Origin: Cannabis sativa
Taxonomy: Eukaryota > Streptophyta > Magnoliopsida > Rosales > Cannabaceae
Length of the DNA: 64,000 bases
Assembly (NCBI RefSeq): GCF_029168945.1
Contig: NC_083603.1
Location: 34,879,396 to 34,943,395, forward strand
Reading direction: 5' to 3'
Numbering within the stretch: the stretch's first letter is position 1; every line of letters starts with the position of its first letter. The notes under the pieces are model-generated. The model was not told the origin of the DNA and did no database searches. It saw only the letters and a list, made by a program, of their open reading frames with translations. Position numbers and translations under genes: made by a program. Below are positions 10,074 through 52,217 of this stretch, piece after piece.

Positions 10074-10503
10074 TGTGACAGTCAGTATTCCCGTGATCCG
10101 TAAGGGGAAATACCGGGTAAGCTGTGCAATCCCACATCGCCTGGGGAAGGTCAAGTGGGATGATTCTGAGGCTGTGTGGGTATGGGACTACAAAGTTGAA
10201 GAGAGCTTAAATGGATTGATTGGTACTACCTATATCAACAAGGTGCATCTTGTTTTTCGGTAGCCCATCTCGAAAGAACTCCACAGTTAAGCGTGCTTGA
10301 CATGGGGCAATTTCAGGATGGGTGACCTCCTGGGAAGTTTTCCCAGGAAGCGTGCGAGTGAGGACAAAGCACGCTGGAAACACTCATGTTGGTCTGTAGG
10401 GTCAGTCATCAGTCCATAAAGCAGCCAGAGTGGCGTACTCGTGTATAAGAGCCATTAGTCCGTGGGTGTAAGGGCCCAATGGAGGCTTGAAGCGAGGACG
10501 CTA
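10074..10503 (+). repeat. 5' LTR of the chimera, Cassandra-type
   Basis: Begins tgtgacagtcagtattccc and contains cccacatcgcc and a 5S rRNA domain, all typical of Cassandra LTRs. It ends at gaggacgcta, directly before the primer site. The interrupted 3' copy ends gacgttaca, so the 5' copy seems to lack two bases at its very end. The frames 10060-10263 and 10462-10671 inside and just after it are not genes. Confidence 0.85.
10264..10345 (+). promoter_or_regulatory. 5S rRNA-derived internal pol III promoter inside the LTR
   Basis: The A-box agttaagcgtgcttg (10285-10299) and the intermediate element plus C-box ggatgggtgacctcctggga (10316-10335, continuing agt) are identical or nearly so to plant 5S rRNA genes, with a 5S-like spacing. 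The flanks diverge and the start and end of a true 5S gene are absent. It is therefore a co-opted 5S promoter and not an rRNA gene. It should recruit TFIIIA/TFIIIC and pol III; activity is inferred. Confidence 0.88.
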
Positions 10504-10506
10504 ATT

Positions 10507-10519
10507 TGGTATCAGAGCC
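10507..10519 (+). other. Primer binding site, initiator Met-tRNA type
   Basis: tggtatcagagcc follows the LTR end after three bases (att). The sequence after it (gccaggttgtcttccg) is the gypsy leader, identical in wording to that of the intact gypsy near 49540, not Cassandra. The LTR/gypsy switch therefore lies at or just before this site. Confidence 0.85.
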
Positions 10520-10785
10520 GCCAGGTTGTCTTCCGAAGATCGTCACGACATGTACAGTCATCATCAGCAGTTAGCTCGTTCCACGATTCAGTAAGCCTTT
10601 ATTGCTTTAGTAGTGTATTTATTTATTTTATGAATAAGAAAAGCCTAATAGGAAGCATGTTAGTAGCCTGATAGTAGAATAGGCGCACGTTTCTTTTTTA
10701 ATTTCCAAATTAAGCGGCATTAGTAAGCTCTCCTTGAATACGACCTGATATGCCAACTCTTGGTTTCGCAGGCGGTTCCGACTAG

Positions 10786-10839
10786 ATGGACGCCAGGCGG
10801 ACTACCAGGAGCCAGGGCAATTCAGTGGGGTCGAATTAA
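10786..10839 (+). other. 17-codon upstream reading frame before gag
   Basis: ATG at 10786 opens a frame that ends with TAA at 10837-10839. It lies in the same frame as gag, whose first long stretch starts at 10993, and another TAG lies between. The same 17-codon frame with the same stop is present in the intact gypsy (49221-49274, minus). It may be a real uORF or the N-terminus of gag with an inherited nonsense mutation. Confidence 0.5.
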
Positions 10840-10992
10840 GGTCAGGGAGCTCAGTTTCCCCCGCTAGCTAGGGGCCGAGGTAGAGGTCCCAAAGGCAGGG
10901 CTCGTGGTCGGGGTGTTGAGAACCCGCCACAGGCTGCCCAGGCTCCCCAAGCCGATTAGGGAGCCCAGAATTGGGAGGTTAGGTTTGCTGAA

Positions 10993-13545
10993 ATGCAAGC
11001 CCGGATAGAGGAACAAGACTTAGAGATTCAGAGGTTGAGGCAGCAGGGGGCTCCTGCAGTGCCTGTGCCAGTAGTTCCAGTGGCACCCGGCCTTATTGCT
11101 CAGGCCAAAATAGTGGTGGCGGCCAACAGATTGGAACCTTTGTATGAACGGTTCCGGAAGCAAGCACCTCTGGTCTTTTTGGGAGGTCCAGATGTGATGA
11201 AGGCGGAGCAGTGGCTAATGGTGATCACCAAAATCCTGAACTTTATGGGTGTCACCGGGAACGACAGAGTGGTGTGTGCCACTTTCCAGTTTCAAGAAGA
11301 TGCTCTAGTCTGGTGGGACATGGTGTCTCAGATCCATGACGTCACCACCATGACCTGGGAAAGGTTCCAGGAACTCTTCAACGCCAAGTATTATAATGAG
11401 GCGGTCAGAAGCGCCAAGAGGAAAGAGTTCGCTCGCCTGACCCAGCGAGAGAATATGAGCGTGACCGAGTATACTACTCAGTTTGATCGGTTGGCGAGGT
11501 TAGCCTCGGGTATTGTGCCAACCGACTTCAGCAAGAAAGAGAAGTACCTGGACGGGTTAAATGCGAAGATTAAACATGACTTGATGATCACCACTGACGA
11601 CAAGACCACCTATGCTGAGATGGTGGAGAAGACACTACGAGCTGAGGGCGCAGTTGGATGTATGTCGGAGTCAGCTAGTACTCCGGCGAGTGGCGGGGCT
11701 CCTACCCCTCCTGCATCAGGTTTTAGCAGGGGGAGTAGTGGTTCGGCCATGGACCAGAAGAGGAGAGCATCCACTGCATCCGGAGGTTCGAGTCAGAACA
11801 AGAGGTTCCGGGGGAACCAGAATAGATGTAGTCGTCCTAGTGGTGCAGAGACCCGATTCTCCTATCCCGAGTGCCCCAGCTGCAAAAGGCACCATCAGGG
11901 TGAATGCAAGGGTCGGGGATGCTTTCACTGTGGCATGCCCGGACACTTCAAGAGGGATTGTCCCTAGCTCCAATCAGAGGCACCGAGGGCTCCGGCGATA
12001 CCCACTCCAGCTAGGGTGTTCGCCATCACTCAGGCTGATGCAGATGCCAGCCCATCAGTTGTAACAGCTCAGCTTTCTGTTAGTAACTCGCTTTACTCAG
12101 TACTGTTTGATTCTGGGGCTACATATTCTTATGTGGCAGCCAGAGTCTTTAGTAAATTGGATAGACCGTATGATAGATATGAATCAGGGTTTGGAACCCT
12201 ATTACCTGGCGGAGAGTTAGTTATCTCCAAAAGGTGGATTAGGTCTATGCCGATCAGGATAGATGGTAGAGAGTTAAGTGCTGACTTGATAGAGATGAGC
12301 CTAGTAGAGTTCGATATTATTTTAGGAATGGATTTCCTATCTAAATATTCGGCGAGTATTGATTGCAAAAGGAAGATGGTGATCTTCCAACCGGAAAGTG
12401 AAGAACCATTCGTGTTTGTTGGCTTAGTTCGGGGATCTCGGATCCTGGTCATTTCGGCCATGTCAGATAGGGAATTATTACATGGTGGATGCTTAGGGTT
12501 TCTGGCCGTGGTGGTGGACACCACTCAGCCAGATAGCATTCGGCCAGAGGACATCAAGGTGGTTCGGGAATTTTTAGATGTTTTTCCCGAAGAACTTCCA
12601 GGGTTACCACCTCAGCGGGAGATTGACTTCGTGATAGATTTGGCACCAGGGGTGGAACCGGTTTCCAAAGCTCCATATAGGATGGCTTCAGCTGAACTTA
12701 AGGAATTAAAGATTCAACTCCAAGGGTTGCTTGACATAGGGTTTATTCGGCCTAGCGTGTCACCCTGGGGAGCCCCAGTTTTATTCGTCAAGAAGAAAGA
12801 TGGAACTATGAGGATGTGCATCGACTACAGAGAATTGAACAAGCTGACGGTGCAGAATAAATATCCATTACCTAGGATCGATGATTTGTTCGATCAACTT
12901 CAGGGGAAGACGGTCTTTTCTAAGATTGATCTCCGTTCGGGTTATCATCAGTTGAGAATCCGAGAGGAGGACATTCCGAAGACGACTTTCCGCACTAGGT
13001 ATGGACATTATGAATTCCTGGTTATGTCGTTTGGATTAACCAATGCTCCTGCAGCATTCATGGATTTGATGAATAGAGTATTCAAGGATTTCCTCGATAT
13101 CTGTGTGATTATGTTTATCGACGACAACCTCGTGTACTCTCAATCAGAAGAGGAGCATGAATTACATCTTCAGATGGTACTGCAACGGCTTCGGGAACAC
13201 AAGCTTTATGCCAAGTTCAAGAAATGCGAATTTTAGCTATCTCAGGTGTCCTTCCTAGGGCACATTGTGAGCAAAGATGGGATCAAGGTGGATCCCGGGA
13301 AGATCGAATCCGTCAGGGATTGGCCGAGACCGAAGGCAGTGACAGAGATGAGAAGCTTCTTGGGTTTTGCTGGGTACTACCGTAGGTTCGTGGAAGGGTT
13401 CTCTAAAATTTCAATGCCCCTAACCGAACTTACAAAGAAGAATCAGCGGTTTGTCTGGTCAGACAAGTGCGAAGCTAGTTTTCAGGAGCTGAAGCAGAGA
13501 TTGATTACCGCTCCAGTGCTAGATTTGCCTTCGGACAACGAGAAG
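10993..13545 (+). pseudogene. gypsy gag-pol, first part (gag, protease, reverse transcriptase), broken
   Basis: A single frame with premature stops. Gag (from 10993) has the retrotransposon capsid region (LVWWDMV...[11 protein letters not shown]) and an intact CCHC knuckle [14 protein letters not shown] near residues 310-323. It stops at TAG 11965-11967. In the same frame follow an aspartic protease ([11 protein letters not shown], coded near 12108) and reverse transcriptase ([29 protein letters not shown], where the intact relative has Ile instead of Asn after IDD). A second stop, TAG, is at 13234-13236. The frame then runs through the RT thumb/connection region until the copia insertion at 13546. 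The protein relates closely to the minus-strand polyprotein at 44700-49067. The stops look like C-to-T/G-to-A transitions, common in methylated plant repeats. Confidence 0.93.
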
Positions 13546-14295: not shown

Positions 14296-16243
14296 TGTTG
14301 GTATTATATTTATCCAGGATCTTAGATCTATTTGCAAGTATGTTGATTTAACAACCTAATATTGAACTTCTAAAACGATGAACTAAACACATAAAAGTTA
14401 AGAATAACTTACAGTGATTGCAGCGGAATTTATGTCTCCTTCCACTCAGATCTCTAACCCTTGATTCCTGTCTGTAGCAGAGTATAATCAAGATCTGAGC
14501 CCGAAAGTTCTTCAGTTGGATGTGATCCTTCACAGTCTTCCAAACTATGATGAGATACTGAATGATGTGAGTGGGCACTTCTCTCTCACTAAGGAATTTC
14601 GAAATCTCTCTTTGTTTTTCTCTCTTAATTTCGTGTGATATACTTTGCAAAGCAAAGTTTTCTCAAGCAAAAACATTCATACAAAGAGAGGAGAGGGGCT
14701 GCTATAAATAGGAAAAGGGAAGATCACAACTTTCCAAATAAACAGTTTCCTCTTTTACTGTGTAATTGAATAACTGCCTTATTTAGTGTGATTCACCACT
14801 TTCCTATTTAGGCTAGGCTTTGACTAGCAATTAAATGACATATTAAATTGAAAATAATAATTGGAAAAAAGGCATTGATGTGGCCGGCCATGGTGTGAAT
14901 GGGCCTCACATGATTTTTGCAGTTTCCTCAATTTTATTTCTATTTCTCCAAAAATGCCATTTTTCCAATTCTAATCATTTAAATAACAAAACCAATTATT
15001 TAATAACTAAAATAGATTATTAAATAACATTGCCATTTAAAATTAGTTATTAATTCAGACATGCAAAGTCTCATAATTAATAATTAAACCTAGAAACCCT
15101 CTTATTTACAATTTCATCCCTAAACTGTGAGAATTCACAAATTAGACATAGTCTAACTTTTAGAATTATAATTGATTAATCATAAATCAATTATAGAGTT
15201 CTACAAACAGTATAATCTCAACTAGAATGGGGACCATGGATCTATATTCTGAGCTTCCAATAAGTTGAACCGATTTACCAAGTAAATCCCTAACTTATTA
15301 ATTCCTCGTTGAATCCACTCTTAGAACTTGGAATTGCACTCTCAGACTAATATAGAGCATATCATATGTTTCACGATATCAATATGCTATCTCATTTAAC
15401 CATTGTTATAATCTTAATGTGATTTAGAGATCCTCTATATAGATGATTTACATCGAGACGGGACCAATTTACCGTTTACACCCCTCAATGTATTTTGCCC
15501 ATTTGAACACTTAGTTACCTGTAAATGATGTTTTAGTGATCTAATATATAGTCACTGAAACAATAGCTCATCCATTTACTTGTATTTAACTAAGCTCAAA
15601 AGGAATTATCACTTTACTTCTATACACCAGTAGAAGCTATAGATTTCCATATTTATGTTTAGCACTCCCTATTCAGTTATGCTATCATGTTCCCAAAATA
15701 TATGTATTATCCTGACTCAAAGCAGGCTTTAACTAATAAATCAAAGAACAAGAATAGCACTCCTGAGATTGAGCCTAAGCATATCAGGATTTAGATTCTC
15801 TTAATCTAAGATCAACTTCTGACATTGACTTGGAAAGATACAACGGTAAGTTTACAATATCTTTAACCAAGTTCAATATCGGTCCAGTCCAATGCATACT
15901 CCATGCATTCGAAACCAGTATACTTTACCAATGTTCTGGAAAAAACATAACACTTACTCCAAGTGTAAGTATACTTCATCGCTGATTATCACATCAGTGT
16001 AAATCCAAAACACTAATGAACAGGGACCAAATCTTTTGAATCATATAATCACAATCACATTCCACTGTATTGACGATACTGTAATTGTGAATAACTATAT
16101 GTTCTGGATTTAACTGATTTTGTGCATATATCAAGTATATGTATTAAACCATAAACATGTAACATACATGTAAACATACTTCACTTCTAAATTGATAACT
16201 AATCAGATTGTAATGAGTTTTATTTAGGGTATAAAACCCAACA
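14296..16243 (-). repeat. 3' LTR of the gag-only copia
   Basis: On the plus strand it begins tgttggtattatatttatcc and ends ataaaacccaaca; aactcccacttgcac (polypurine tract, other strand) follows. The frame at 14348-14650 is LTR sequence, repeated at 21330-21632, and not a gene. Confidence 0.92.
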
Positions 16244-18020
16244 AACTCCCACTTGCACTAACATAAAACAAGTAGTGCATTACAATCAATCTTTTGTCTT
16301 GATCCTCCGATCAAGTGTAGTATCTTTGAATTCACCCATATATCTGGAATCAGGTTCATGAGACACATGAAACCTTCCCTTACTTATGCTTTACTCGTCA
16401 AGGGATACTGAAATCCTTACTGCCCATTAAGTACATCTGAACAACCAGAAGACATATCTCTCAAATTTTAAAATTTGGAATTGAGATAATGCAGTGTAGA
16501 ATTTTCTTCAGTAAAATAACTTTCTGGTAATTTTAATTTACAAAGTTATATCTTCTCTGATGAAGCTTGAATAATTATAGATGGGTTATAACACTCTTCT
16601 ATAATGATTCCTCCACCCCCAGAGTAACCACCATCTCACAATGAGTCGGTGTGCATATCAGGATCACTAATGAATAGTTCCTTAATAACATATACGTCAC
16701 TTTTGTAAATCTTTCTTGATTGTCCCCTAATGTTCCCCATTTGATTACATCTCAGATGGCTCCCACTCAATAGCAGATGTCTGGTTAGAAACTTTTAACC
16801 TTTTACTATTGTTTCTAGGAACATCTCGTTGTGACTTATTATCTTAAGCCGAAATTGTAAGTTTCTTTAAGATTAGTTCAACAACATAGCAGTCTAGTAT
16901 TTGAAGTGAAAAATACTTGCTAGAGATTTAAGCAATCAAATCAAGATACCATAAAATGTTATGAGAAATAGACATCTTGAATCAGTCTTTCGAATAGACT
17001 ATGCAAGAATTCTTCTATCTTACTCTCATAATTCTGATAAGTTATTTCTATCCATGTGAATGGTTAGACTTGTTTTTACCAGAGGTGTTCTTAAGTTCCT
17101 ATCACAATTATCAACCAAACAAAGATGGGTAAAGAATTTTAATATTCTCCCACTCAGCCAAGGTAATGTGAAACATTATCAAAGAACTTTAATTGTATCA
17201 ATAACTATTACAACAGTAAATCTAAACTGGAACATATAATCAAGATCAAGGATTTATTCTGATAATAGCTAATTTATTATATTATTTCCATGTTTAAAAA
17301 TATGTGCCACAAAGGGTACTGTAGAATAAAGTCCACCCCTAAGTTTATAGAGATTATGGTCCACCCCTAAAGGTTGTAAATCTCTAAGTGTGATAGAGAG
17401 TCTGTGGAGTTGAATATAATCCAGAGTTCATTAGATATAAAAAATCGTTTGAACTGCATATTATTCTTAACTTTTCTCCACCCCTATCAGATCAAAAGAT
17501 CTTTTTATTAAACAAATTCTCAAATAATTGTTTTTGAAACCAACAATTATTCATAAACATAGAAATAACTTCAAGTGTTTATGTAGTAATAACTCTGTAA
17601 AGAGTTTAAATACTTTTTGAATTTGCATCAATAATAAAAACACATACACATTCAAACATAATAAATATAATAATCGGTAATAGATAAAATAAAGAGCTGA
17701 AGCTCAACTCCTAAATTGCAATATAATTGAAAAAGATATTTTATTATAAACCAAAAATTGTTTGCAATATTTATGAGAACCAAACAGGGAATTAAGATCC
17801 CAAAACTTGAAATCCAAATTGTTTGAAAAACTAAACAATTAATTCAAATGAAAGAGCTTCTTCTTTATTATAGACAATCTCCATCCACCATCCAGCTTTC
17901 TAATCCAACTCGTTAAGATAGCACCCGAGTTTAAGAGGCTTTAGCTATAAGAAGAATAATAAACAAGGTTAGTAGTCCAGAATTATTAATCCAAAAGGAT
18001 AATAATTCACTAAAAACACA
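16244..18020 (-). other. Non-coding 3' region of the gag-only copia
   Basis: The space where pol would stand has no open frame. The true polypurine tract borders 16244. Purine-rich motifs of the type ggggtggag or gagtgggag (read on the minus strand) recur near 16612, 16759, 17149, 17331, 17361 and 17478. The rest is AT-rich. Confidence 0.7.
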
Positions 18021-18893
18021 TCAGTTTATAAAGAAAATACCTTGTTTCTTTGCGAGATACTTAGGACATTGGGATTTCCAATGGCCTTTCTCATTGCAGT
18101 AGAAACATTTTCCTTTTTGTGTATTGCCAGAAGCTCCAGCATTTTTGTTTCTAGCTGCATTCGCAGCTTGAGCTCGCTTCTTGGCATTTTTCCACTTCTT
18201 CTTATGATGGGATTTGGAAGTAGAAGCAACAAGTGCCTCAGGATTACTTGTCTTATTACCATTTCCAGAATTCTGAGGTTTATTCCCTCTTTTCTTGGGA
18301 CCTCCAATCAAATTTTCATATGTCTGAAGGTCATTGACTAAAGTATGAAAGTCCTGTTCCTTCTTATTCATGACATAATTTGATGTGTAGGGCAGAAAAT
18401 TTGGAGTCAGGCTATTCAAGATGAGACTCACTTGAGTAGTCTGATCCATTTCAGCACCATGATTCTGGGCTTCTTGGAAATAACTAGCCATCTGGAGAAG
18501 GTGATCACGCACATTCTGATGGGGTTCCATCCGTGCGTTGATGAATTTCTTAGTCGCGTCGAAACGAGACTGAATAGATGCCATACCGAATAGCTCAGTT
18601 AACTGCATCATGATTTATGCAGCCGTGACAGTGTTTGCAAACCTTGTTTTCAAGGTGTCAACCATACTGGAAAGCATGAAGTAACGAGCTTTATTGTTAG
18701 CATTATGCCAACGCTCGAACTTCTCTTTTACAGCTTTGGTTGCATTGTCACTTGGCTGCTCAGGGGACGGCTCAGTCAACACAAACGAGGCACTTTCACC
18801 TATGAGAGCAATATGAATGTTCTCTCTCCACTTTGGGAAGTTAGACCCATTTAGCTTATTTTCAGTTAAGAGTGACAACATGGGATTTGACAT
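18021..18893 (-). pseudogene. copia Gag polyprotein with one nonsense codon
   Basis: The frame begins with ATG at 18893 (MSNPMLSLLTENKLNGSNFP), typical for plant copia Gag, and has the UBN2-type capsid region (FPKWRENIHIAL, then MMQLTELFGMASIQSRF). It ends with a CCHC knuckle CFYCNEKGHWKSQC and a basic linker. A single TAA at 18615-18617 splits it after residue 92; the frame resumes immediately and runs to 18021, about 290 residues in all. No protease follows the knuckle, so Gag alone was the product. Gag binds and packages element RNA into cytoplasmic particles. The frame at 18026-18307 and the plus-strand frame at 18042-18341 are shadows. Confidence 0.9.
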
Positions 18894-21277
18894 TTCAATT
18901 CAGGATACTACAAGATAATACATAGATATCAGTTATGGTTTATCACAAAATCTCATTTAGAAATTATCAGCATACAGCAAGTAGGAATGACTAGAGAAAA
19001 TACAAAAAAAAAAATTCAATCCTAAATAATTTCCAAGGTTTTCAACAAACTGATATTAGTGTCCCGTTTAGGCGAGAGTCAAAGCTATCATTCATTGAAT
19101 AGAGTTGTCAGCTCATCTAGAATAGCAAACCTTCTAGCAACCTTTTATTCGATCGAAAAGAGAATCTGACGTTGTCCCGTTTAGGCGAGAGTCAAGGTCA
19201 TTCTTATTTCATGAGCTTCTACCATTGTTTCATATGTTTGTAAGTCTTATACAGTACCCACCATTAGGGTGGTTAATACTAATATAAAACACTTACAAAC
19301 ATACTTATCTTTCGAGATTAAACGGTGCTAACTTGCTAATGAACGTTCCTCCATTAGGGAGGATTACTCACTAAAACAATAGCTATGTAAAACACACAAT
19401 GGAGATCGAATATCTCAAAATAATAAAGCTCATTGTTTAAATTGTATTTTCTTCTATTATTTATTTATTTTAAATCTATATCTATTTATTAAATTTTAAA
19501 TTTAGAATAGAATCTAAATAAAATTTAATTTAATATTTGTAAAATTAAACTTAGATGGTTAAGAAAATAAAATGAATTATTTCCATCTTAGTGTTAATTT
19601 TCCAACAAATATTAAGAAAATTACTTAATATTTAATTCTTTATTTAATTAAATACAAGAAAAATACAAATAGTTTATCTAGAAATGAAATTCATTAAACT
19701 ATGTTTTTTCTTAAATTAATTTCGAAGAAATTAATTATGTTGCTATTCAATTTTTATTAGGTCAAACTAATATAATTAACCTAGCACAGTTATTCAAATC
19801 AGGCAAATGGGCCTTCACAATTGGGGTTGTTCATGTGAGGGGGAGCTGGGTCCAGTATGTCGCACCCACTTCTAAGGCTCCCAACTCTCACACAAGGCCC
19901 AAAAGAGAGGAATTTAACCTTAAAATGAACAACTGTTATTAATTGAATAGGCCCATTAACTAAATGAGCCTAAATAAAATCTATCAGGTTATGACATTTT
20001 ATTTAGCAACAACAACCTATATGTATCTATAATAGAAATTAAACATATAGGCTCACACAGGCACACAGATTTGGATGGATCCTATCATGTTACTAGGTCA
20101 TACACAGATGAAAGAAGTTTGTAAAAATTACCTGTTACAAATTATCAACTTGATCTATCATCAATTAAACCATGGGTTAAAATCAGATCATTTGATCTGT
20201 CAACAAGTTAACCCTGACAATTTAGATCAAGTAATAATAGGTTTTAGGAAAACTTACAAACAATCTCAAACACATACTCCTGCAACAAGGTTAGATCTGG
20301 ATAGTTGGATGTAGGATTTATTTAATTTTAAATCTATATTTCGAAAAATAATATTAAAATTAAACCTACCATTTTGAAAAATTAGGTTTTGGGTAACCTA
20401 AATGTCATTTCAAAATAAATTGCTAACTTTCCTTTTAAATTTCATGTTATTTAATAAATTAAATAATAAAATAGAAAATGGTAAATACATACCCTTTTCT
20501 TATTTTACAACTTAATTTAATTGAAAAAATAACAAAATTTAAAAGTTAAGAAAAATACCTTATTTCCTCTTTTAAAATTATCATGATTATTTTTCTCTTA
20601 TTTTAATTAAGGTCAAGTTACCAAAAAAAAATATCTGACCTTAAAAAAAATAAAATAATCAAATTTTAAAAGGAAATAAGAAAAGAGGTAAGCAAAACTT
20701 GATTTTTCCCATTTTCAAAATCAAATTGCACTAATATCTAAAATTAATTTTAAAAATTAAAATTAATTTATTTCTCATAATTAGATTTGAAATTTGAAAA
20801 ACAAAAATCAACATACAAAACTACACAAAAAATCAGAATTTAATTCCATGAAATAGCATGAAAAATCGAAGAAAACGAAGAAAATAGCAGGTGGTACGGA
20901 CATCATGCAAAGCATGCTGTCCGCGCGCGTGGGAGAGGAGCCACAGCCCAGAAATCTGGGCGCAAGCACCCCTGCGCATGATTTCCGCGCGCGTAGGGAA
21001 GGTGCTCACCTCCTACGTTTTTCCCGATTTTCAAAAATTCATAACTAATTCAAATTAAATCGAAATCGAGTTCTGTAAAAAAGTAAATTGCTTAGAATTT
21101 TCCAAACTATCCAATAAAAATAATTCCAGATACAGAAAATCAATTATTTTATCCAGAATTCACAAACATCAATCAAACATCAATATGACACAACATGAAA
21201 CCATCCAAATCACAAGCAAATCGTTTTAAGTCCAAATTTCTTGCAAGCAAATCAGTTACCATGGCTCTGGTGCCAGT
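18894..21277 (-). other. Leader of the gag-only copia
   Basis: Non-coding, between primer site and gag. It shares blocks with the leaders of copia A and the 58096 element: twin cgcgcgcgga words in a GC-rich island (20890-21017), the segment near 19800-19890, two stem-loops and a duplicated 20-nt motif (19061-19363). The primer site next to 21278 reads tggcaccagagcc on the minus strand, with two changes from tggtatcagagcc. The frame 20075-20314 is part of this leader. Confidence 0.8.
19061..19363 (-). repeat. Leader module: two stem-loops and duplicated 20-nt motif (gag-only copia)
   Basis: On the plus strand the stem-loops read tcctccattagggagga (19347-19363) and ccaccattagggtgg (19258-19272). 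The motif gtcccgtttaggcgagagtc is at 19061-19080 and 19174-19193. The same order occurs in copia A and in the 58096 element. Confidence 0.85.
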
Positions 21278-25393: not shown

Positions 25394-25868
25394 TGTTAGA
25401 CATTTATATATATAAACTGAAATGTATATGAATAAGTATAAAGTGCGGAATTAATAAAACATATATGTACTATAACTAAGGATCGAAATACCTCCAGCCA
25501 TTGAATCTTTAAGCTTCAAACCCAAAAACTTTGATATGCAACAGAAACCGATTGATGTGGGTAATCGGGCTTCCTCGCTCTCTCAACTCTCTTTAGATGG
25601 ATTTTGCTGTTATGAACAGAATGAGTGAGAAGCTCGGGGACCGAGACCCTATATTTATAGGTGAGATACTCCATCAGTATCTGCGCCACATTAATTGTCA
25701 GAATATTTTGACAATTAATTCAGGAAATCAAATCAGGTAATGAATATAGAAATCTGACCATATATAGAATATTACGTAATTGATTCGTCTGTATTCAATG
25801 AATATAAAATATTCATTTATCAGAATCAATAATATTATTTTATTTCCTTAATTAGAAATATTCTAATA
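25394..25868 (-). repeat. 3' LTR of copia D (475 bp)
   Basis: On the plus strand begins tgttagacatttatatat and ends aatattctaata; ttctcccacttggtcag (polypurine tract, other strand) follows. Confidence 0.9.
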
Positions 25869-28800: not shown

Positions 28801-29419
28801 TTATTCTATTTATGGAGATATGTTCCATAATTTTTGGTGCTATAATGTAGAAGAATTCTTATTAATAACACATTTCTTATTGTCAGATTGAACTTGCATA
28901 TCTTTATGAGTGACATCATTTGTAGTAAAGACCTCTAAATGTGTCTAAATCAAGTTTCAATAGAATCTTGGAACATAAAGATCTTTGCCAATTTTAAAAC
29001 AAAGTCACTACTATATTGCTTGTTCCTTAAACTTCTAAATGTGAGAAGTTATCTTGTCTGTGGATAAGATTTGCTCACAGTTACTGACTTTCTTAGGTTT
29101 ATTTGTAAACCTTGCAAGAAATTATGAATGTGGAATAACAATCTAAAATAATCCACTATGTGTTAATAATCACATTAACTATATTAGAATGAATTCATAC
29201 ACAATAAATTAAAATTTATTGGTGATAATAAATTAAAATTTATTGGTGATGAAATTATCAGAATAAATTTTGAAAATTTCTACTGTTATGGAAGAAATTT
29301 TCTACTAGTATGGAAGAAATTTATGAATAGTGATGTAATAAAATTACATATATAGTTTTGAGGTTTAAATGAATCATGTTTTTACCAATGAATAAACATG
29401 CTTAAATATGAAATCTTAT

Positions 29420-39440: not shown

Positions 39441-39445
39441 AGAAT

Positions 39446-40797: not shown

Positions 40798-42050
40798 TGC
40801 TTGCCTCATTGGTCTGCTGCACTGACTCTGGACCTAGGTATTTTCTCTCCCTGTCTCATCCCAGTGGATGGGAGACCTACACTTCCTACCGTATAACAGT
40901 TCATAGGGAGCCATGCCTATCGTACTCTGATAACTGTTGCTGTTCGTAATCCTTTAATTGACGGGAGGCATAAGTGATAACCCGATCGGCTTGCATCAGC
41001 ACACACCCCAGACCCTGTCTGGATGCATCGCAATAAACTATGAACTTCTCGTTGTTCGAAGGCAAAGCTAGCACTGGAGCGGTAATCAATCTCTGCTTCA
41101 GCTCCTAAAAACTAGCTTCACACTTGTCTGACCAGACAAACCGCTGATTCTTCTTTGTAAGTTCGGTTAGGGGCATTGAAATTTTAGAGAACCCTTCCAC
41201 GAACCTACGGTAGTACCCAGCTAAACCAAGAAGCTTCTAATCTCTGTCACTGTCTTCGGTCTCGGCCAATCCCTGACGGATTCGATCTTCCCGAGATCCA
41301 CCTTGATCCCATCTTTGCTCACAATGTGCCCTAGGAAGGACACCTGAGATAGCCAAAATTCGCATTTCTTGAACTTGGCATAAAGCTTGTGTTCCCGAAG
41401 CCGTTGCAGTACCATCTGAAGATGTAATTCATGCTCCTCTTCTGATTGAGACTACACGAGGTTGTCGTCGATAAACACAATCACACAGATATCGAGGAAA
41501 TCCTTGAATACTCTATTCATCAAATCCATGAATGCTGCAGGAGCATTGGTTAGTCCAAACGACATAACCAGGAATTCATAATGTCCATACCTAGTGCGGA
41601 AAGCCGTCTTCGGAATGTCCTCCTCTCGGATTCTCAACTAATGATAACCCGAACGGAGATCAATCTTAGAAAAGACCGTCTTCCCCTGAAGCTGATCGAA
41701 CAAATCATCGATCCTAGGTAATGGATATTTATTCTTCACCGTCAGCTCGTTCAATTCTCTGTATTCGATGCACATCCTCATAGTTCCATCTTTCTTCTTG
41801 ACGAATAAAATCGGGGCTCCCTAGGGTGACACGCTAGGCCGAATAAACCCTATGTCAAGCAACCCTTGGAGTTGAATCTTTAATTCCTTAAGTTCAGCTG
41901 GAGCCATCCTATATGGAGCTTTGGAAACCGGTTCCACCCCTGGTGCCAAATCTATCACGAAGTCAATCTCCCGCTAAGGTGGTAACCCTGGAAGTTCTTT
42001 GGGAAAAACATCTAAAAATTCCCGAACCACCTTGATGTCCTCTGGCCGAA
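40798..42050 (-). pseudogene. Inverted partial copy of gypsy pol inside the chimera
   Basis: Read on the minus strand, 42050 to about 40945 runs from [16 protein letters not shown] through RT to early RNase H ([19 protein letters not shown]). Then, after a deletion junction near 40940, it jumps to integrase (about 40925-40830) and reaches a hairpin junction at 40798-40830. It carries stops and changes such as FIDDNLV, a variant also present in the plus-strand copy at about 13115 but not in the intact gypsy. No function is expected. Confidence 0.9.
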
Positions 42051-42122
42051 TGGTATCAGAGCCTTGACCCAGCCGGAAGTGTGGTCGACGAGGACGTCGG
42101 ACCCCGTAAGGGGGGGGGTGAT
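42051..42122 (+). other. Cassandra-like internal stretch with primer-site word and polypurine tract
   Basis: Begins tggtatcagagcc (42051-42063), continues with ggaagtgtggtcgacgagga and ends in a G-run polypurine tract (42107-42122) before the LTR start. In Cassandra elements the same order (primer site, short spacer, polypurine tract, LTR) makes up the whole interior. Confidence 0.75.
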
Positions 42123-42240
42123 TGTGACAGTGAGTATTCCCGTGATCCGTAAGGGGAAATACCGGGTAAGCTGTGCAATCCCACATCGCCTGGGGAAGGT
42201 CAAGTGGGATGATTCTGAGGCTGTGTGGGTATGGGACTAC
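42123..42240 (+). repeat. 3' LTR of the chimera, first piece
   Basis: Starts tgtgacagtgagtattccc and matches 10074-10191. Cut at actac (42236-42240) by the gypsy insertion. Confidence 0.9.
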
Positions 42241-44584
42241 TGTTACACCCTAACTAACATAGGCGTATTACGTGATTTTTAAACATGCTGTGCAGCTCGT
42301 TGCTAATCAACGAGGTTTATGGAAAAACGTGATTAATTAAAATTTTTGCTTTTTAATTAAACGTATAAAATAATATTACAAAAGACTCGGGATCCCGATT
42401 ACAAAATCATTTACAAAAAGATTTAACTGTTTAAACAAAATAATTGTCGCCTAGCGACTAGTTACAAGATCAGCCTCGCTGTCCCGAGGATCGTACTCTC
42501 CAGGCCTAACCGCCCCGACATGTACAATCTTCACAAGCTCGTTCACGGTCCATCAGCTTTAGCCTTGCCTTTACCTACACATAAACGTAGAACTGTGAGT
42601 CGACAGACTCCTAAGAAAAGCATAATAATACTCATACATAAATCCCGGTCATGATCAGACGCCCATACCCCTGATCACAACCCTAACTGCTGTGTCCAAC
42701 ACGATACTGAGTCCCGCTACTGCCGTGTCCAACACGGTACTGAGCCACTATTGTCGTGTCCAACATGGTACTGAGTTCTGAACGTTCATAGGGACGGTAC
42801 TATTGACACGTAACAGCTTGATCGGTCGAACCGGTCATACTCCGGCTGCTGGTCATACTCCAGCCTGTACCGACGTGTTACTATATCCACCTGATCGGTC
42901 GAACCGGCCATACTCCCGCTGCTGGTCATACTCCAGCCTGTAACGACGGGATACGTCAATAGTACGGAACCACCAACCTAAGTGTTAGCCTGATCGGTCG
43001 AACCGGTCATACTCCGGCTGCTGGTCATACTCCAGCCTGTACCGACGTGACAGGGTTGGATGGTTTGAAGCCCACATACATAACTAATGTAATCTAACAG
43101 GCTTCCTACATGCACGCTAAACATGTAATCTACATATGCATACTGTTATACTAATCTTACCTGGATTCCGAATTCAGGTCTGTCGGTCAACCTGACTGGA
43201 ACTTTAACTGCACGGCGGATCACAGGCTCCTAAACCATAAAAATCACAACACTATAAGTGACACGCTAAATCACTTCCCGGGGACTTAAACTAGGAACTA
43301 AAAGTTTCCCTATCGATAAAAAGCATGGCAATACCCCCTAAAACATAAAATCGAGGAAATCTAGGGTTTCTGAAAATTTCCCAACCGGTAGACCGGTTCT
43401 GCAACTGGAATTCCGGTTCTGGGAATTACTGGACCCTCATCCGGAATTCCGGTTGCACTACCGGAATTCTGGTTCCTCGCAGGAATTTTTCAAAAATTCA
43501 TAACTCGATCAATTCTAACCCAAATCACACAAGATCTTCCAGACCTGTTCTATATGACCCAAATAACCATTCAAAGGCAACAAAACCACCTAGAACTCAC
43601 AGAATCACAAAACACCATTAAAGACCAAGCTTTGAGTTCCAAAACTCAAACTTGGTTAGAATCCACTAACATGCAATCAAACTAAATCAAACCTACATAA
43701 TCATGCATAACTAAGCCTCTGAAAATGAAAACAACCAACTACAACAAGTAATTACAGATTCCACATATATCTTCAAAATCAAAGCTTTTGAACAAAATCT
43801 CATAAACTTGAACCAAGTAACTAGCCTGCATGAAACCTACTTAATTCCATTCAATTCAAACGTAGAAAATCATAGAAAACAACCCTAAACTACAACAGCA
43901 ACAAACTCAAAATCATCATGCATTTACTCATCTTTATTTCATCAAAATTCAACAATTTTTAAAGAAACAACGAAGAGGAGCTAACCTAGCTTGAAGAATG
44001 CTTAGATTGGAAGAGAAATTACTTGAAAATCAAAGCAAGAACCCAGCTCCTTGCACCCACACACTCAGCCGAGAGAGAGAGGAAAAGAGAGAGAGAGTTT
44101 TGAATTTTCTAACTTTGTGATTTTTTTGTAAAATGAAAATGAATAACATGCAACAACTTACTCTTTGTTTCAGCCAACATTTAATATCAATTAACACTTA
44201 TTTTTCAATTAATAACTCATTAGAAGACAAAATAATAATGGGGCAAAAAGACCATTTTGCCCCTCCACACTAAAACCACATAAAACACACTAAAGGGTAT
44301 TTTTGGGAAATTCTAAATTCCCGGCCATTCCTGACATTCCCAATGTCTAATAAACCGTCCCAAACTACTAACATACTAAGTTGTGATTTCTACTGAGCCA
44401 AACACCGAGTTCCAAAAATACCGGGCACCGGAAATGCAAAATATGAAAACTACTGAATGACATAGCAATGCATTTCTGAATTCAATAATAACAGTATAAT
44501 AAATTATTTAAATAGCTATAAATAATTTTCATAATTAATCATAATTAACTGCTAATTTCCAAATTAAACTAAGCGTGCTTTACA
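42241..44584 (-). repeat. 3' LTR of gypsy B (2,344 bp)
   Basis: On the plus strand begins tgttacaccctaactaac and ends aagcgtgctttaca. Contains tandem repeats (42690-43045) and a block of ccggaattccggttc words (43380-43475). No gene is found in it. Confidence 0.94.
42690..43045. repeat. Tandem arrays in gypsy B LTR
   Basis: A ~30-40-bp unit around gtgtccaacacggtactgag is present three times (42690-42775). A ~65-70-bp unit around gatcggtcgaaccggtcata ... gctggtcatactccagcctg follows three times (about 42820-43045). The matching array in the other LTR is at 50003-50365; the frame 50098-50403 there is repeat sequence. Confidence 0.88.
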
Positions 44585-44587
44585 ACT

Positions 44588-44600
44588 ATCCCCCCCTTAA
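44588..44600 (-). other. Polypurine tract of gypsy B
   Basis: On the minus strand ttaagggggggat next to the 3' LTR. It overlaps the end of the original pol frame. Confidence 0.85.
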
Positions 44601-44699
44601 AAGGATTTCGTCCCCGAAATCTAACCTGAATAACTCTGGATATTGAGCTCTCATATCTGACTCTAGCTCCCAGGTGGCTTCCTCCACCTTGCTGTTTCT

Positions 44700-47600
44700 C
44701 TAGAGAACTTTGACCAATGATATGGTCTTATTTCGAAGGACTTTATCCTTCTTATCCAGGATCTGCACTGGCTGTTCCTCATAAGTCATGTCTGGCTGTA
44801 GCTCAAGGCTCTCATAACTGAGTATATGAGAGGGATCTGAAACGTATTTTCTCAACATCGAGACATGGAATACGTTGTGAACTGCTGATAAAGCTGGAGG
44901 CAATGCTAACCGGTATGCCACTTGACCTATCTTCTCGAGAATCTCGAAAGGTCCTGTAAATCTAGGGCATAACTTGCCTCTTTTCCCGAAACGTTTGATC
45001 CCCTTCATCGGAGATACCCGCAAAAACACATGGTCCCCTACTTGGAACTTAACATCTCTGCGTTTCGGATCTGCGTAACTCTTCTGTCTGCTCTGTGAGG
45101 CAAGCATTCTAGCTTTTATCTTCTCTATTGCCTCATTGGTCCGCTGCACTGACTCTGGACCTAGGTATTTCCTCTCCCCTGTCTCATCCCAGTGGATAGG
45201 AGATCTACATTTCCTACCGTATAACAGTTCATAGGGAGCCAGCCCTATCGTACTCTGGTAACTGTTGTTGTAAGAAAATTCTATCAACGGTAGATACTTA
45301 TTCCATGAGCCTTCAAAGTCCATAACACAGGCTCTCAACATGTCCTCCAATATCTGAATTGTCCTTTCGCACTGACCATCTGTCTGAGGATGGAATGCTG
45401 TACTGAATTTCAGCTTTGTACCCATTGCTCGTTGCAAACTTTGCCAAAATTTGGAGGTGAACTTCGGATCCCTGTCCGAAACTATAGACTTCGGTACCCC
45501 GTGAAGTCTTACTATCTCTCTGACATACAACTCTGCCAACTGATCCACTGTAAATGTTGTTCTAACCGGCAGCAAATGAGCAGATTTCGTAAATCGATCC
45601 ACCACTACCCAGATGGAATCAAATAAACATGTGGTCCTAGGTAACCCGACTACAAAATCCATCGTGATATCTTCCCATTTCCATTCTGGTAGGGTTAGAG
45701 GCTGCAACAACCCTGCTGGTCTCTGATGTTCAGCCTTAATCTGTTGACAAGTTAGGCATCTCGATACGAATTCTACCAAATTCTTCTTCATACCGCTCCA
45801 CCAGAAGTACGGTTTCAAATCTTGGTACATCTTAGTGGTGCCGGGATGCAGAGAATACGGGGTAGAATGAGCCTCCTGAAAGATCTCATTCCTAAGTTCC
45901 ACAGTATTCGGAACACAAACCCTGGCTTTATACAAAAGCATCCGGCTGTCTGACACTGAAAAGTCTTTGGCTTGACCAGCCAACACCTCATCTCTGATCT
46001 TCACTAATTCTAGATCCGTCATCTGAGCGACTTTTATTCTTTCCAACAGGTCAGATTGCAGCGTTAAGTTGTGAAGCTGACCTACCACAAACTCAATGCT
46101 GGATCTAACCATATCCTCTGCTAGCTGTGGTGAGATCTGAACCATACTAGCTACTTGCCCGGGACCCTTTCTGCTCAGGGCATCGGCCACTACATTGGCC
46201 TTTCCGGGATGATAGAGGATCTCACAGTCGTAATCTTTCACTAATTCCAACCAACGCCTTTGTGTCATATTCAAATCCTTCTGAGTAAAGAAATACTTGA
46301 GACTTTTATGGTCGGTATAGATTTCACACTTTTCCCCGTAAAGGTAATGCCGCCAAATCTTCAATGCGAAAACCACCGCGGCCAACTCTAGGTCATGAGT
46401 TGGGTATCGCTGCTCATAATCCTTTAACTGACGGGAGGCATAAGCAATAACCCGATCGGCTTGCATCAACACACACCCCAAACCCTGTTTGGATGCGTCA
46501 CAATAAACTACGAACTTCTCCTTGTCTGAAGGCAAAGCTAGCACTGGAGCGGTAATCAACCTCCGCTTTAGCTCTTGAAAACTAGCTTCGCACTTGTCTG
46601 ACCAAATAAATCGCTGATTTTTCTTTGTAAGTTCGGTTAAGGGCATTGAAATTTTTGAAAACCCTTCCACGAACCTACGGTAGTACCCAGCTAAACCCAA
46701 GAAGCTTCTGATCTCTGTCACTGTCTTCGGTATCGGCCAATCCCTGACGGATTCGATCTTCCCGGGATCCACCTTGATCCCATCTTTGCTCACAATGTGC
46801 CCTAGGAAAGACACCTGAGATAGCCAGAACTCACATTTCTTGAACTTGGCATAAAGCTTATGTTCTCGAAGCCGTTGCAGTACCATCTGAAGATGTAATT
46901 CATGCTCCTCTTCTGACTGAGAGTACACGAGGATGTCGTCGATAAACACAATCACACAGATATCGAGGAAATCCTTGAATACTCTGTTCATCAAGTCCAT
47001 GAATGCTGCAGGAGCATTGGTTAGTCCGAATGACATAACCAGGAATTCGTAATGTCCATACCTAGTGCGGAAAGCTGTCTTCGGAATGTCCTCCTCTCGG
47101 ATTCTCAACTGATGATAACCCGAACGGAGATCAATCTTAGAAAAGACTGTCTTCCCCTGAAGCTGATCGAACAAATCATCGATCCTAGGTAATGGATATT
47201 TATTCTTCACCGTCAGCTTGTTCAATTCCCTGTAGTCGATGCACATCCTCATAGATCCATCCTTCTTCTTGACGAATAAAACCGGGGCTCCCCAGGGTGA
47301 CACACTGGGCCGAATGAACCCTATGTCAAGCAACCCTTGGAGCTGAATCTTTAATTCGTTAAGTTCAGCTGGAGCCATTCTATACGGGGATTTGGAAACT
47401 GGTTCCACCCCTGGTGCCAAATCTATCACGAAGTCAATCTCCCGCTGAGGTGGTAACCCTGGAAGTTCTTCGGGAAAAACATCCAAAAATTCCCGAACCA
47501 CTTTGATGTCCTCTGGCCGAATGGTATCTGGCCGAGTGGTGTCCACCACCACGGCCAGAAACCCTAGACAACCGCCGTGCAACAACTCCCTAGCTGACAT

Positions 47601-49067
47601 AGCCGAGATCACCGGGATCCGGGATCCCTGAACTGAACCGACAAACACAAATGGTTCTTCACTTTCCGGTTGGAAGATCACCATCTTCCTTTTACAATCA
47701 ATGCTCGCCGAATATTTAGATAGGAAATCCATTCCTAAAATAATATCGAACTCTACTAAACTCATCTCTATAAGATCAGCACTTAACTCCCTACCATCTA
47801 TCCTGATCGGCATAGACCTAATCCATCTGTTGGAGATAACCAACTCTCCGCCAGGTAATAGGGTTCCAAACCCTGATTCATATCTATCGAACGGTCTATC
47901 CAATTTACTAAAGACTCTGGCCGCCACATAAGAATGTGTAGCCCCAGAATCAAACAACACTGAATATAGCGAGTTATTAATAGAAAGCTGACCTGTGACA
48001 ACTGATGGGCTGGCATCTGCATCAACCTGAGTGATGGCGAACACCCTGGCTGGAGTGGGTATCGCCGGAGCTCTCGGTGCCTCTGATCGAAGCTGGGGAT
48101 AGTCCCTCTTGAAGTTTCCGGGCATGCCACAGTGAAAGCATCCCTGACCTTTGCACTCACCCCGATGGTGCCTTTTGCAGCTAGGGCACTCGGGATAGGA
48201 GAATCGGGTCTCGGTACCACTAGGACGACTCCCTCTGTTTTGGTTCCCCCGGAACCTCTTGTTCTGACTCGAGCCACCGGAAGCAGTGGGTGGTCTCTTC
48301 CTCTGATCAATGGCCGAACCACTACTCCCCCTGCTAAAGCCTGATGTGGGAGGGGTAGGAGCCCCGCCACTCGCCGGAGTGCTAGCTGACTCCGACATAC
48401 ACCCAACTGCGCCCTCAGCTCGCAGTGCCTTCTCCACCATCTGAGCATAGGTGGTGTTGTCGTCCGTGGTGATCATCAAATCATGCTTGATCTTGGCATT
48501 CAAACCATCAAGGTACTTCTCTTTCTTGCTGAAGTCGGTCGGCACAATTCCCGAGGCTAACCTCGCCAATCGATCAAACTGAGTAGTATACTCAGTGACG
48601 CTTATATTCTCACGCTGGGTCAGGTGAGCGAACTCTTTCCTCTTGGTGCTTCTGACCGCCTCATTGTAATACTTTGCGTTGAAGAGTTCCTGGAACCTTT
48701 CCCAGGTCATGGTGGTGACGTTGTGAATCTGAGACACCATGTCCCACCAGACCAGAGCGTCCTCCTGGAACTGGAAAGTGGCACACACCACTCTGTCATT
48801 ACCGGTGACACCCATGAAGTTCAGGATCTTGGTAATCACCGTCAGCCACTTCTCGGATTTCATTACGTCTGGACCTCCCAAGAAAACCGGAGGTGCTTGC
48901 TTCCGGAACCGCTCATACAGAGGTTCCAATCTATTGGCCACCACCACTATCTCGGCCTGGGCAGCAGGGGCAGGTGTCACTGGAACTACGGGCACTGGAA
49001 CTGCAGGAGCACCCTGCTGTCTCAACCTCTGAATCTCGAGGTCTTGTTCTTCAATCCGGGCTTGCAT
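44700..49067 (-). CDS. gypsy B Gag-Pol polyprotein, 1,455 residues
   Basis: Order: Gag capsid ([11 protein letters not shown] near residue 120), knuckle region near 310-323, aspartic protease ([14 protein letters not shown] at about 373-375), RT ([21 protein letters not shown] at about 708), RNase H ([20 protein letters not shown]), integrase zinc region (CLTCQQI) and core with D1137, D1198, E1234 (exact 35-residue D-E spacing), then a C-terminal region ([13 protein letters not shown]). PR-RT-RH-IN order is Ty3/gypsy; the C-terminus resembles chromovirus/Tekay-like ends. Oddities: the knuckle reads [14 protein letters not shown], so the His and last Cys are replaced. A TAG at 44700-44702 cuts the frame about 35 codons before its natural end at the polypurine tract. 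An in-frame TAG lies 12 codons before ATG 49067, so Gag may once have begun further upstream. The plus-strand frames at 45390, 47701 and 48132-49192 and the minus frame 47798-48448 are shadows. Confidence 0.95.
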
Positions 49068-49220
49068 TTGCGCAAACCGAACCTCCTAATTCTGGGCTCC
49101 CTGATCGGCTGAGGGAGCCTGGGCAGCCTGTGGCGGGTTCTCATCACCCCGACCACGAGCCCTGTCTCGGGGACCTCTACCTCGGCCCCTAACAGGTGGG
49201 GGAAACTGAGCTCCTTGTCC

Positions 49221-49274
49221 TTAGTTCGACCCCACTGAGTTGCCCTGACTCCTGGTAGTCCGCCTGGCGTCCAT
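49221..49274 (-). other. 17-codon upstream frame before gypsy B gag
   Basis: ATG at 49274-49272 and TAA at 49223-49221, at the same place and with the same stop as in the chimera (10786-10839). In frame with gag. Confidence 0.5.
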
Positions 49275-49539
49275 CAGATTAGAACCGCCTGCGGAACCAA
49301 GAGTTGGCATATCAGGTCGTATTCAAGGAGAGCTTACAAATGCCGCTTAATTTGGAAATTAAAAACGAAACATGCGCCTATTCTACTATCAGGCTACTAA
49401 CATGCTTCATAACAGGCTTTTCTTTTTCATAAATAAACAAATAAACTACTAAAGCAATAAAGGCTTACTGAACCGTGAAACGAGCTAACTGCTGATGATG
49501 ATTGTACATGTCGTGACGATCTTCCGAAGACAACCTGGC

Positions 49540-49552
49540 GGCTCTGATACCA
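49540..49552 (-). other. Primer binding site of gypsy B
   Basis: ggctctgatacca on the plus strand is tggtatcagagcc on the minus strand, three bases from the LTR end. Confidence 0.9.
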
Positions 49553-49555
49553 AAT

Positions 49556-51898
49556 TGTAACACCCTAACTAACATAGGCGTATTACGTGATTTTTAAACA
49601 TGCTGTGCAGCTCGTTGCTAATCAATGAGGTTTATGGAAAACGTGATTAAATAAAATTTTTGCTTTTTTAATTAAACTTATAAAATAATATTACAAAAGA
49701 CTCGGGATCCCGATTACAAAATCATTTACAAAAAGATTTAACTGTTTAAACAAAATAATTGTCGCCTAGCGACTAGTTACAAGATCAGCCTCGCTGTCCC
49801 GAGGATAGTACTCTCCAGGCCTAACCGCCCCGACATGTACAATCTTCACAAGCTCGTTCACGGTCCATCAGCTTTAGCCTTGCCTTTACCTACATATAAA
49901 CGTAGAACTGTGAGTCGACAGACTCAGTAAGAAAAGCATAATAATACTCATACATAAATCCCGGTCATGATCAGAAGCCCATACCCCTGATCACAACCCT
50001 AACTGTCGTGTCCAACACGATACTGAGTCCCGCTACTGCCGTGTCCAACACGGTACTGAGCCACTACTGCCGTGTCCAACACGGTACTGAGTTCTGAATG
50101 TTCATAGGGACGGTACTATTGACACGTAACAGCCTGATCGGTCGAACCGGTCATACTCCGGCTGCTGGTCATACTCCAACCTGTACCGACGTGTTACTAT
50201 ATCCACCTGATCGGTCGAACCAGTCATACTCCGACTGTTGGTCATACTCCAGCCTGTACCGACGGGATACGTCAATAGTACGGAACCACCAACCTAAGTG
50301 TCAGCCTGATCGGTCGAACCGGTCATACTCCGGCTGCTGGTCATACTCCAGCTTATACCGACGTGTCAGGGTTGGATGGTTCGAAGCCAACATACATAAC
50401 TAATGTAATCTAATAGGCTTCCTACATGCACGCTAAACATGTAATCTACATATGAATATCGTTATACTAATCTTACCTGGATTCCGAATTCAGGTGTGCT
50501 GGTCAACCTGACTGGAACTTTAATTGCGCGGCGGTTACAGGCTCCTAAACCATAAAAATCACAACACTATAAGTGACACGCGAAATCACATCCCGGGGAC
50601 TTAAACTAGGAACTAAAAGTTTCCCTATCAATAAAAAGCATGGCAATACCCCCTAAAACATAAAATCGAGGAAATCTAGGGTTTCTGAAAATTCCCCAAC
50701 CGGTAGACCGGTTCTGCGACCGGAATTCCGGTTCTGGGAATTACTGGACCCTCATCCGGAATTCCGGTTGCACAACCGGAATTCCGGTTCCTCGCAGGAA
50801 TTTTTCAAAAATTCATAACTCGATCAATTCTAACCCAAATCACATAAGATCTTCCAGACCTGTTTATATGACCCAAATAACCATTCAAAGGCAACAAAAC
50901 CACCTAGAACTCACAGAATCACAAAACACCATTAAAGACCAAGCTTTGAGTTCCAAAACTCAAACATGGTTAGAATCCACTAACATGCAATCAAACTAAA
51001 TCAAACCTACATAATCATGCATAACTAAGCCTCTGAAAATGAAAACAACCAACTACAGCAAGTAATTACAGATTCCACATATATCTTCAAAATCAAAGCT
51101 TTTGAACAAAATCTCATAAACTTGAACCAAGTAACTAGCATGCATGAAACCTACTTAATTCTATTCAATTCAAACATAGAAAATCATAGAAAACAACCCT
51201 AAACTACAGCAGCAACAAACTCAAAATCATCATGCATTTACTCATCTTTATTTCATCAAAATTCAACAATTTTTAAAGAAACAATGAAGAGGTGCTAACC
51301 TAGCTTGAAGAATGCTTAGATTGGAAGAGAAATTACTTGAAAATCAAAGCAAGAACCCAGCTCCTTGCACCCACACACTCAGCCGAGAGAGAGAGGAAAA
51401 GAGAGAGAGAGTTTTGAATTTTCTAACTTTGTGATTTTTTTGTAAAATGAAAATGAATAACATGCAACAACTTACTCTTTGTTTCAGCCAACATTTAATA
51501 TCAATTAACACTTATTTTTCAATTAATAACTCATTAGAAGACAAAATACTAATGGGGCAAAAAGACCATTTTGCCCCTCCACACTAAAACCACATAAAAC
51601 ACACTAAAGGGTATTTTTGGGAAATTCTAAATTCCCGGCCATTCCCGACATTCCCAATGTCTAATAAACCGTCCCAAACTACTAACATACTAAGTTGTGA
51701 TTTCTACTGAGCCAAACACCGAGTTCCAAAAATATCGGGCACCGGAAATGCAACATATGAAAACTACTGAATGACATAGCAATGCATTTCTCAATTCAAT
51801 AATAACAGTATAATAAATTATTTAAATAGCTATAAATAATTTTCAAAATTAATCATAATTAACTGCTAATTTCCAAATTAAACTAAGCGGGCTTTACA
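49556..51898 (-). repeat. 5' LTR of gypsy B (2,343 bp)
   Basis: On the plus strand begins tgtaacaccctaactaac and ends gcgggctttaca. Nearly identical to 42241-44584, with tandem arrays at 50003-50365. Confidence 0.94.
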
Positions 51899-51903
51899 AC
51901 TAC

Positions 51904-52217
51904 ACATTTGAAGAGAGCTTAAATGGATTGATTGGTACTACCTATATCAACAAGGTGCATCTTGTTTTTCGGTAGCCCATCTCGAAAGAACTCCACAGTT
52001 AAGTGTGCTTGACATGGGGCAATTTCAGGATGGGTGACCTCCTGGGAAGTTTTCCCAGGAAGCGTGCGAGTGAGGACAAAGCACGCTGGAAACAATCATG
52101 TTGGTCTGTAGGGTCAGTCATCAGTCCATAAAGCAGCTAGAGTGGCGTACTCGTGTATAAGAGCCATTAGTCCGTGGGTGTAAGGGCCCAATGGAGGCTT
52201 GAAGCGGGGACGTTACA
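51904..52217 (+). repeat. 3' LTR of the chimera, second piece, with 5S domain
   Basis: Continues the LTR cut at 42240. Contains agttaagtgtgcttg (A-box with one change) near 51997 and the intact intermediate/C-box block at 52027-52050. Ends gacgttaca at 52217, followed by the TSD aaaca. Confidence 0.92.

Follow-up and report, generated by a model that had tools for sequence, protein, structure and literature searches.

The outer unit and the elements nested in it

The window, by which we mean the whole 64-kb stretch of DNA analyzed, contains at 10074-52217 a single unit flanked by the 5-bp target site duplication (TSD) AAACA, with one copy at 10069-10073 on the left and the other at 52218-52222 on the right. 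The unit is bounded by Cassandra-type long terminal repeats (LTRs) in plus orientation. The 5' LTR (10074-10503, 430 bp) was delimited by self-comparison and alignment, and the 3' LTR, located by alignment to it, lies in two pieces (42123-42240 and 51904-52217). The two LTRs differ at 8 of 430 compared positions (1.9%), comprising 1 of 118 in the first piece and 7 of 312 in the second, in agreement with the original prediction of an AAACA duplication around matching LTRs of ~430 bp. At its very end, where it meets the interior, the 5' LTR lacks 2 bp, reading GCTA against GTTACA in the 3' LTR.

Within the 5' LTR, a 5S A-box (10285-10296) and a C-box (10315-10327) are separated by an 18-nt spacer (10285-10327 in all, plus strand), an assignment made from the published motif and from identities to 5S oligonucleotides. 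In the available text of its source, the published Cassandra query is an A-box, an 18-nt spacer, a C-box and then the primer binding site (PBS) (PMC7215508), and the full query was matched at 10285-10518, across the 5' LTR and the PBS. Base composition predicts ~4e-6 A-box/C-box pairs for the window; a search of both strands returned the two outer LTRs and nothing else, each with its boxes 18 nt apart as in Cassandra. The predicted 5S boxes are thus present in both outer LTRs, which fit the published A-box/18-nt/C-box motif.

Rfam at its own gathering cut-offs gave no match anywhere in the 64-kb window. At a relaxed threshold the 5S model scored the 5' LTR at 16.8 bits (cut-off 38, E 1.1), below two chance-level snoRNA matches, which indicates that, beyond the boxes, the 5S sequence has degenerated, so that the Cassandra call rests on the published box motif together with the 5S oligonucleotides. 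These oligonucleotides were picked, according to the accessible parts of their sources, for full identity to the 5S sequences of Cannabis, cotton, and maize (PMC6221928; also PMC7274563). Of the three, two have stretches of 15 and 17 nt that recur identically in the 5' LTR; the remaining one has an identical stretch of 8 nt only and matches at 15 of 23 positions without gaps, a value that 21 of 2000 shuffled sequences attained. The 3' LTR shares the 17-nt match, and a substitution in its second piece interrupts the 15-nt one. A timothy LTR-marker primer also shares a 15-nt stretch with the LTR, and its source paper carries no mention of Cassandra. As judged by sequence, the assignment of the outer LTRs to the published Cassandra 5S motif is supported.

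PBSs of the tRNA-Met type at 10507 and 42051 and a polypurine tract (PPT) at 42108-42118 are further Cassandra features of the unit. The PPT belongs to a Cassandra-type interior that we read from the sequence at 42064-42122 (plus strand). The two LTRs and this interior add up to ~930 bp, a figure that is a sum and not the length of a built sequence. A degraded second 5S-like Cassandra core lies at 52455-52560, ~240 bp downstream of the unit and in the same orientation, and is 76% identical to the 5' LTR along 106 bp.

The unit is interrupted twice, by a 25.9-kb copia nest in its gag-pol region and by a 9.7-kb gypsy element in its 3' LTR. The first of these later insertions, E1 (13546-39440, plus strand), was classed as copia-type from its ORFs and termini and not from a profile search; it has the TSD AGAAG/AGAAT and contains two further elements recognized by self-comparison, both on the minus strand and neither belonging to the chimera. 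One, E2 (14296-23225), sits in the left LTR of E1 with the TSD ATAAA, and the other, E3 (25394-32279), has LTRs of ~480 bp and a TSD that is probably TTAGA. Additional LTR copies of the E1/E2 type occur in both orientations at 1-784, 3043-4939, 6390-8282, and 58096-59986.

The second insertion, G2 (42241-51898, minus strand, TSD ACTAC), was defined by self-comparison and Pfam. It entered the 3' LTR later and is likewise no part of the chimera, but it is a gypsy element of the same family as the DNA inside it. Its LTRs measure 2.35 kb, and one open gag-pol frame of 1455 aa gives Pfam matches to gag, RVP_2 protease, RT, RNase H, integrase, and SH3_Tf2-1, with rve slightly under its cut-off; in this set of domains it resembles chromovirus-like Ty3/gypsy elements, putatively of the Tekay/Del clade. 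A relative, P0012, has a chromodomain match under the Pfam cut-off (17.7 versus 25.1 bits) in a tail that G2 stops short of, so G2 may not be fully intact. Among the 29 proteins listed, the best-scoring were from Cannabis sativa, namely P0001 (65% across 92% of the 500 residues used) and P0012 (95% across 16%), pointing to Cannabis or a close relative as the probable host. Each LTR of G2 carries a 63-bp repeat in three copies, and a gypsy-pol-like stretch, about 68% identical to G2, lies toward the right end of the window at 56488-57881.

A gypsy segment between two PBS copies

With the later insertions set apart, what separates the Cassandra-type LTRs is gypsy gag-pol DNA contained in the one TSD-flanked unit. 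Pfam searches of three pieces of the chimera returned gag, protease, RT, and integrase matches. Cassandra elements lack coding capacity, and the element, with these pieces inside it, is a Cassandra-LTR chimera and not Cassandra proper.

At the left junction, PBS copy 1 (10507-10519, plus strand, by alignment and motif) is of the tRNA-Met type and runs directly into gypsy sequence, the 31 bases from 10504 onward being identical to G2. The forward arm follows in two parts, both on the plus strand and defined by alignment to G2 and by Pfam. Part 1 (10520-13545) holds the leader, gag, protease, and RT and differs from G2 at 237 of 3034 sites; part 2 (39441-40796) holds RNase H, assigned by the G2 alignment, and integrase, for which there are Pfam matches with rve slightly under its cut-off, and differs at 109 of 1350 sites. 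The Ty3/gypsy order of gag, PR, RT, RNase H, and INT is kept along the 4.4 kb of this arm, which runs from the PBS into integrase and ends short of the C-terminal part of integrase and of the gypsy PPT. The reading frame is split into several ORFs, and the chimera is therefore not autonomous as it stands.

The sequence then turns round at 40797-40808 (ATGCTTGCCTCA), where TTGCCTCA corresponds to one of the two halves of an inverted repeat of 8 bp that G2 contains. An antisense arm of 1.2 kb, found by self-comparison (40809-42050, minus strand), leads from integrase back to the protease/RT linker, skipping 1.14 kb at about 40939-40943 and some 40 bp more at the turn itself. This arm ends in TGGTATC, which forms the right junction and is at the same time the first bases of PBS copy 2 (42051-42063, plus strand, by alignment and motif), taken as Cassandra's own; the interior, the PPT, and the 3' LTR come after it. 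Both borders of the gypsy DNA thus lie at a PBS, and the gag-pol is framed by two PBS copies. In the self-comparison, the LTRs of G2 were the only gypsy LTRs detected in the unit, and where a gypsy element would have its own LTRs the chimera has 5S-type LTRs that do not match those of G2.

The complete inverted repeat in G2, TGAGGCAA...TTGCCTCA, has a loop of 24 nt and coincides with the turn. In the part of the G2 interior examined, each half has a single occurrence. Folded as DNA, the stretch reaches -9.6 kcal/mol, a value that 8 of 200 shuffled sequences also attained. Nine 8-bp inverted repeats with arms within ~60 nt of each other occur in the G2 interior, which makes the presence of one at the turn unremarkable on its own. 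The rejoining site, GATACCA, is unique within the 4937 bp of G2 interior examined, a stretch that excludes the PBS. At the corresponding position the forward arm carries GATAGCA, and the match between the donor and the PBS may therefore have covered just 6 of 7 bases.

The gypsy gag-pol that the original prediction placed between the LTRs is therefore represented by gag, protease, RT, and integrase pieces that are incomplete, split, and in part repeated in inverted orientation. Its integration as one unit is upheld by the single TSD around the gypsy DNA. The term chimeric retrotransposon stands as regards the chimera, the element itself being defective and partly palindromic, with a PBS-framed segment beside a surviving Cassandra-type interior. 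We considered two further origins and set both aside. A gypsy element that had evolved a 5S domain would not fit the same-family G2, whose 2.35-kb LTRs are unmatched to the 5S LTRs, and recombination between neighboring elements would not be expected to leave a single TSD and matching outer LTRs. That separate events or an assembly error joined Cassandra LTRs and gypsy DNA by coincidence is a thought invited by so heavily nested a region, yet we regard it as very improbable given the outer TSD, the match between the LTRs, the PBS on both borders, and the later insertions that lie inside with TSDs of their own.

Divergence of the arms, LTRs, and insertions

The palindrome arms differ at 33 of 1206 sites (2.7%) over three segments, the skip and the turn being excluded as incomparable, and this divergence is similar to that of the outer LTRs (Fisher p 0.37). 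Polarized with G2, 31 of the 33 differences fall 16 to the forward and 15 to the reverse arm, two three-state sites being omitted. By codon position the arm-to-arm differences number 15/8/8, for which evenness is not rejected (p 0.21). In contrast, the differences from G2 that both arms have in common (n = 59) number 7/5/47, a strong third-position bias (p 9e-7). The absence of such a bias between the arms and its strength in the shared differences suggest that the arms were probably alike at birth, and the bias in the shared differences points to a donor gypsy lineage under coding constraint. From these sequence comparisons, the arms were probably copied from a coding-constrained gypsy element at about the time of integration and then drifted as non-coding DNA.

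These values also bear on whether the chimera might belong to a replicating hybrid family, in which a gypsy lineage with Cassandra LTRs was amplified and the present copy was rearranged. A rice TRIM, OsajRetroS10, offers a precedent in having larger coding relatives, which carry a duplicated PBS-containing sequence and number three copies, as far as the consulted part of that study goes (PMC4717578). Here the forward arm includes neither the end of integrase nor a gypsy PPT, part of the element forms a palindrome, and arm divergence not significantly above that of the LTRs leaves little sign of cycles after the chimera formed; we judge a hybrid family improbable. The chimera is a partly palindromic, defective, and probably one-off element.

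The clock underlying such comparisons is loose. The LTRs of E1 differ at 80 of 1886 sites (4.2%), more than the host LTRs (p 0.017; 0.048 with CpG sites removed) and more than the arms (p 0.031; 0.054 with CpG sites removed), so that E1 is nested yet more diverged than its host, the wrong order under a strict clock. The LTRs of G2 differ at 62 of 2341 sites, close to the host LTRs (p 0.41) and to the arms (p 0.91) despite its later insertion. In view of both anomalies, absolute ages are not trustworthy; the excess divergence of E1 may come from rate differences or from an unusual origin of E1.

Origin of the chimera and relation to known elements

Plus-strand strong-stop DNA can prime on minus-strand cDNA through an identical PBS, and the PBS is the usual place where reverse transcripts end and transfer strands. 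Cassandra and the gypsy family of G2 have an identical 13-nt PBS of the tRNA-Met type. We consider it probable that the chimera arose by misdirected strand transfer at this shared PBS, linking Cassandra cDNA with gypsy cDNA, and by subsequent snap-back, all within one particle. Both elements would have been present in such a particle as cDNA or RNA. There, the plus-strand strong-stop DNA of Cassandra, consisting of the LTR and the PBS copied from tRNA-Met, would have annealed to the PBS complement of the gypsy minus strand, and its extension through gag-pol into integrase would have created the left junction. The strand would then have folded back at the 8-bp inverted repeat TGAGGCAA/TTGCCTCA, primed itself, and copied back through integrase and RT. 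At the GATACCA match it could have rejoined the PBS end of the Cassandra minus strand, which is the natural 3' end of that strand and would have supplied the interior and the 3' LTR, before the double-LTR product entered the genome in a single integration that left a 5-bp TSD. The polarity of the junctions fits either direction of synthesis, and they could also have formed in reverse, during minus-strand synthesis. We infer the order of steps, the particle, and the enzymes; the junctions, the TSD, the palindrome, and the relative divergence are present in the DNA itself.

Taken together, the PBS borders, the single TSD, the matching LTRs, the turn at an inverted repeat, and arms about as diverged as the LTRs support formation during reverse transcription. 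The junctions lie at sites where cDNAs end or transfer, and a single TSD with outer LTRs alike is what template switching leaves. The exception is the 2-bp loss exactly at the left junction, which speaks against a clean strand transfer and for which we assume a later mutation or a slip of the RT. That a single copy of the chimera is the basis of the reading also counts against it. The main rival, helped by this loss, is the repair of a break in a resident Cassandra, in which a double-strand break at the PBS would have been patched by copying an ectopic gypsy element, with invasion through the shared 13-bp PBS and with template slips and fold-back giving filler DNA. Microhomology, small losses, and multiple slips are typical of synthesis-dependent repair, and all three are present here, with microhomology both at the turn and at the right junction and with 2 bp lost at the left one; the outer TSD and LTRs are equally accounted for. 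It requires, however, a chance break at the PBS, which by our estimate makes up roughly 1-2% of the 930-bp element, and under it the divergence of the arms should not exceed that of the LTRs, although it is if anything higher, not significantly so. We regard repair as unlikely on balance. The capture by template switching that had been predicted accordingly agrees with the junctions and with the relative age of the palindrome; the gypsy element's own particle may have been its setting.

According to the available portion of a 2024 study, nothing indicates which autonomous LTR family mobilizes Cassandra (PMC10886601). If the reverse transcription reading is right, Cassandra and gypsy nucleic acids met in one reaction, whatever the source of the enzyme. 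The Cassandra PPT (TAAGGGGGGG with a short leader) and the U5 end (GTTACA) are like those of G2 and unlike those of E1, and the PPT is also unlike that of E2, within a small comparison set. The same 12-nt PBS word occurs beside copia-type LTRs at 24372 and 59986 as well, so the shared PBS does not single out gypsy. The chimera suggests the gypsy family of G2, with its long open gag-pol frame, as a candidate Cassandra helper; the original prediction of such a helper is to this extent favored, short of proof. A Cassandra-gypsy fusion made in reverse transcription would, if true, be physical evidence of a shared copying reaction. Tentatively, and with more doubt than confidence, we propose that Cassandra rides in chromovirus-type gypsy particles and that PBS-to-PBS transfer is a general route by which TRIMs gain or lose coding DNA. 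Two PBS copies around coding DNA would be a searchable signature for any plant genome.

Like Cassandra TRIMs, the chimera has LTRs with 5S A- and C-boxes 18 nt apart, a tRNA-Met PBS, and a PPT, and its LTRs and interior, at ~930 bp, fall inside the 563-968 bp reported for Cassandra. Unlike them it has gag-pol, the 81 Cassandra elements compared in the available text of the same sources being without coding remains (PMC10853983, PMC7215508). From chromovirus-like Ty3/gypsy elements it differs in that Cassandra LTRs replace the 2.35-kb gypsy LTRs.

Larger coding relatives were described for 11 of 289 TRIM subfamilies in the consulted part of PMC4717578. In the rice pair OsajLTRA10/OsajRetroS10, each side of the TRIM breakpoint carries one copy of a 25-bp sequence whose end is the PBS TGGTATCAGAGCC (PMC4717578). 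We read this as the same plan as in the chimera, with coding DNA between PBS copies, although the text does not say so outright. OsajLTRA10 differs in being a copia element with a full coding region and three copies, and the TRIM OsajRetroS10 was held by the authors to derive from the coding element (PMC4717578). In our case the donor gypsy family is found on its own, bearing different LTRs, which makes the direction one of capture. The PBS-framed plan thus offers an alternative reading of proposed TRIM partners; if the general route proposed above holds, the "autonomous partner" of rice, in which the PBS is duplicated, would be a second such event and not the parent element.

In a literature search over titles and abstract openings, with most subscription journals outside its scope, no Cassandra-gypsy chimera was among the matches listed. 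The Angela complexes of Triticeae are alike in having one TSD, matching outer LTRs, and an origin ascribed to template switching in a shared particle; as far as the available text describes them, they join close relatives through a third LTR, whereas the chimera joins unrelated elements at the PBS and includes an inverted arm (PMC1950507). Template-switch complexes with one TSD are thus already known.
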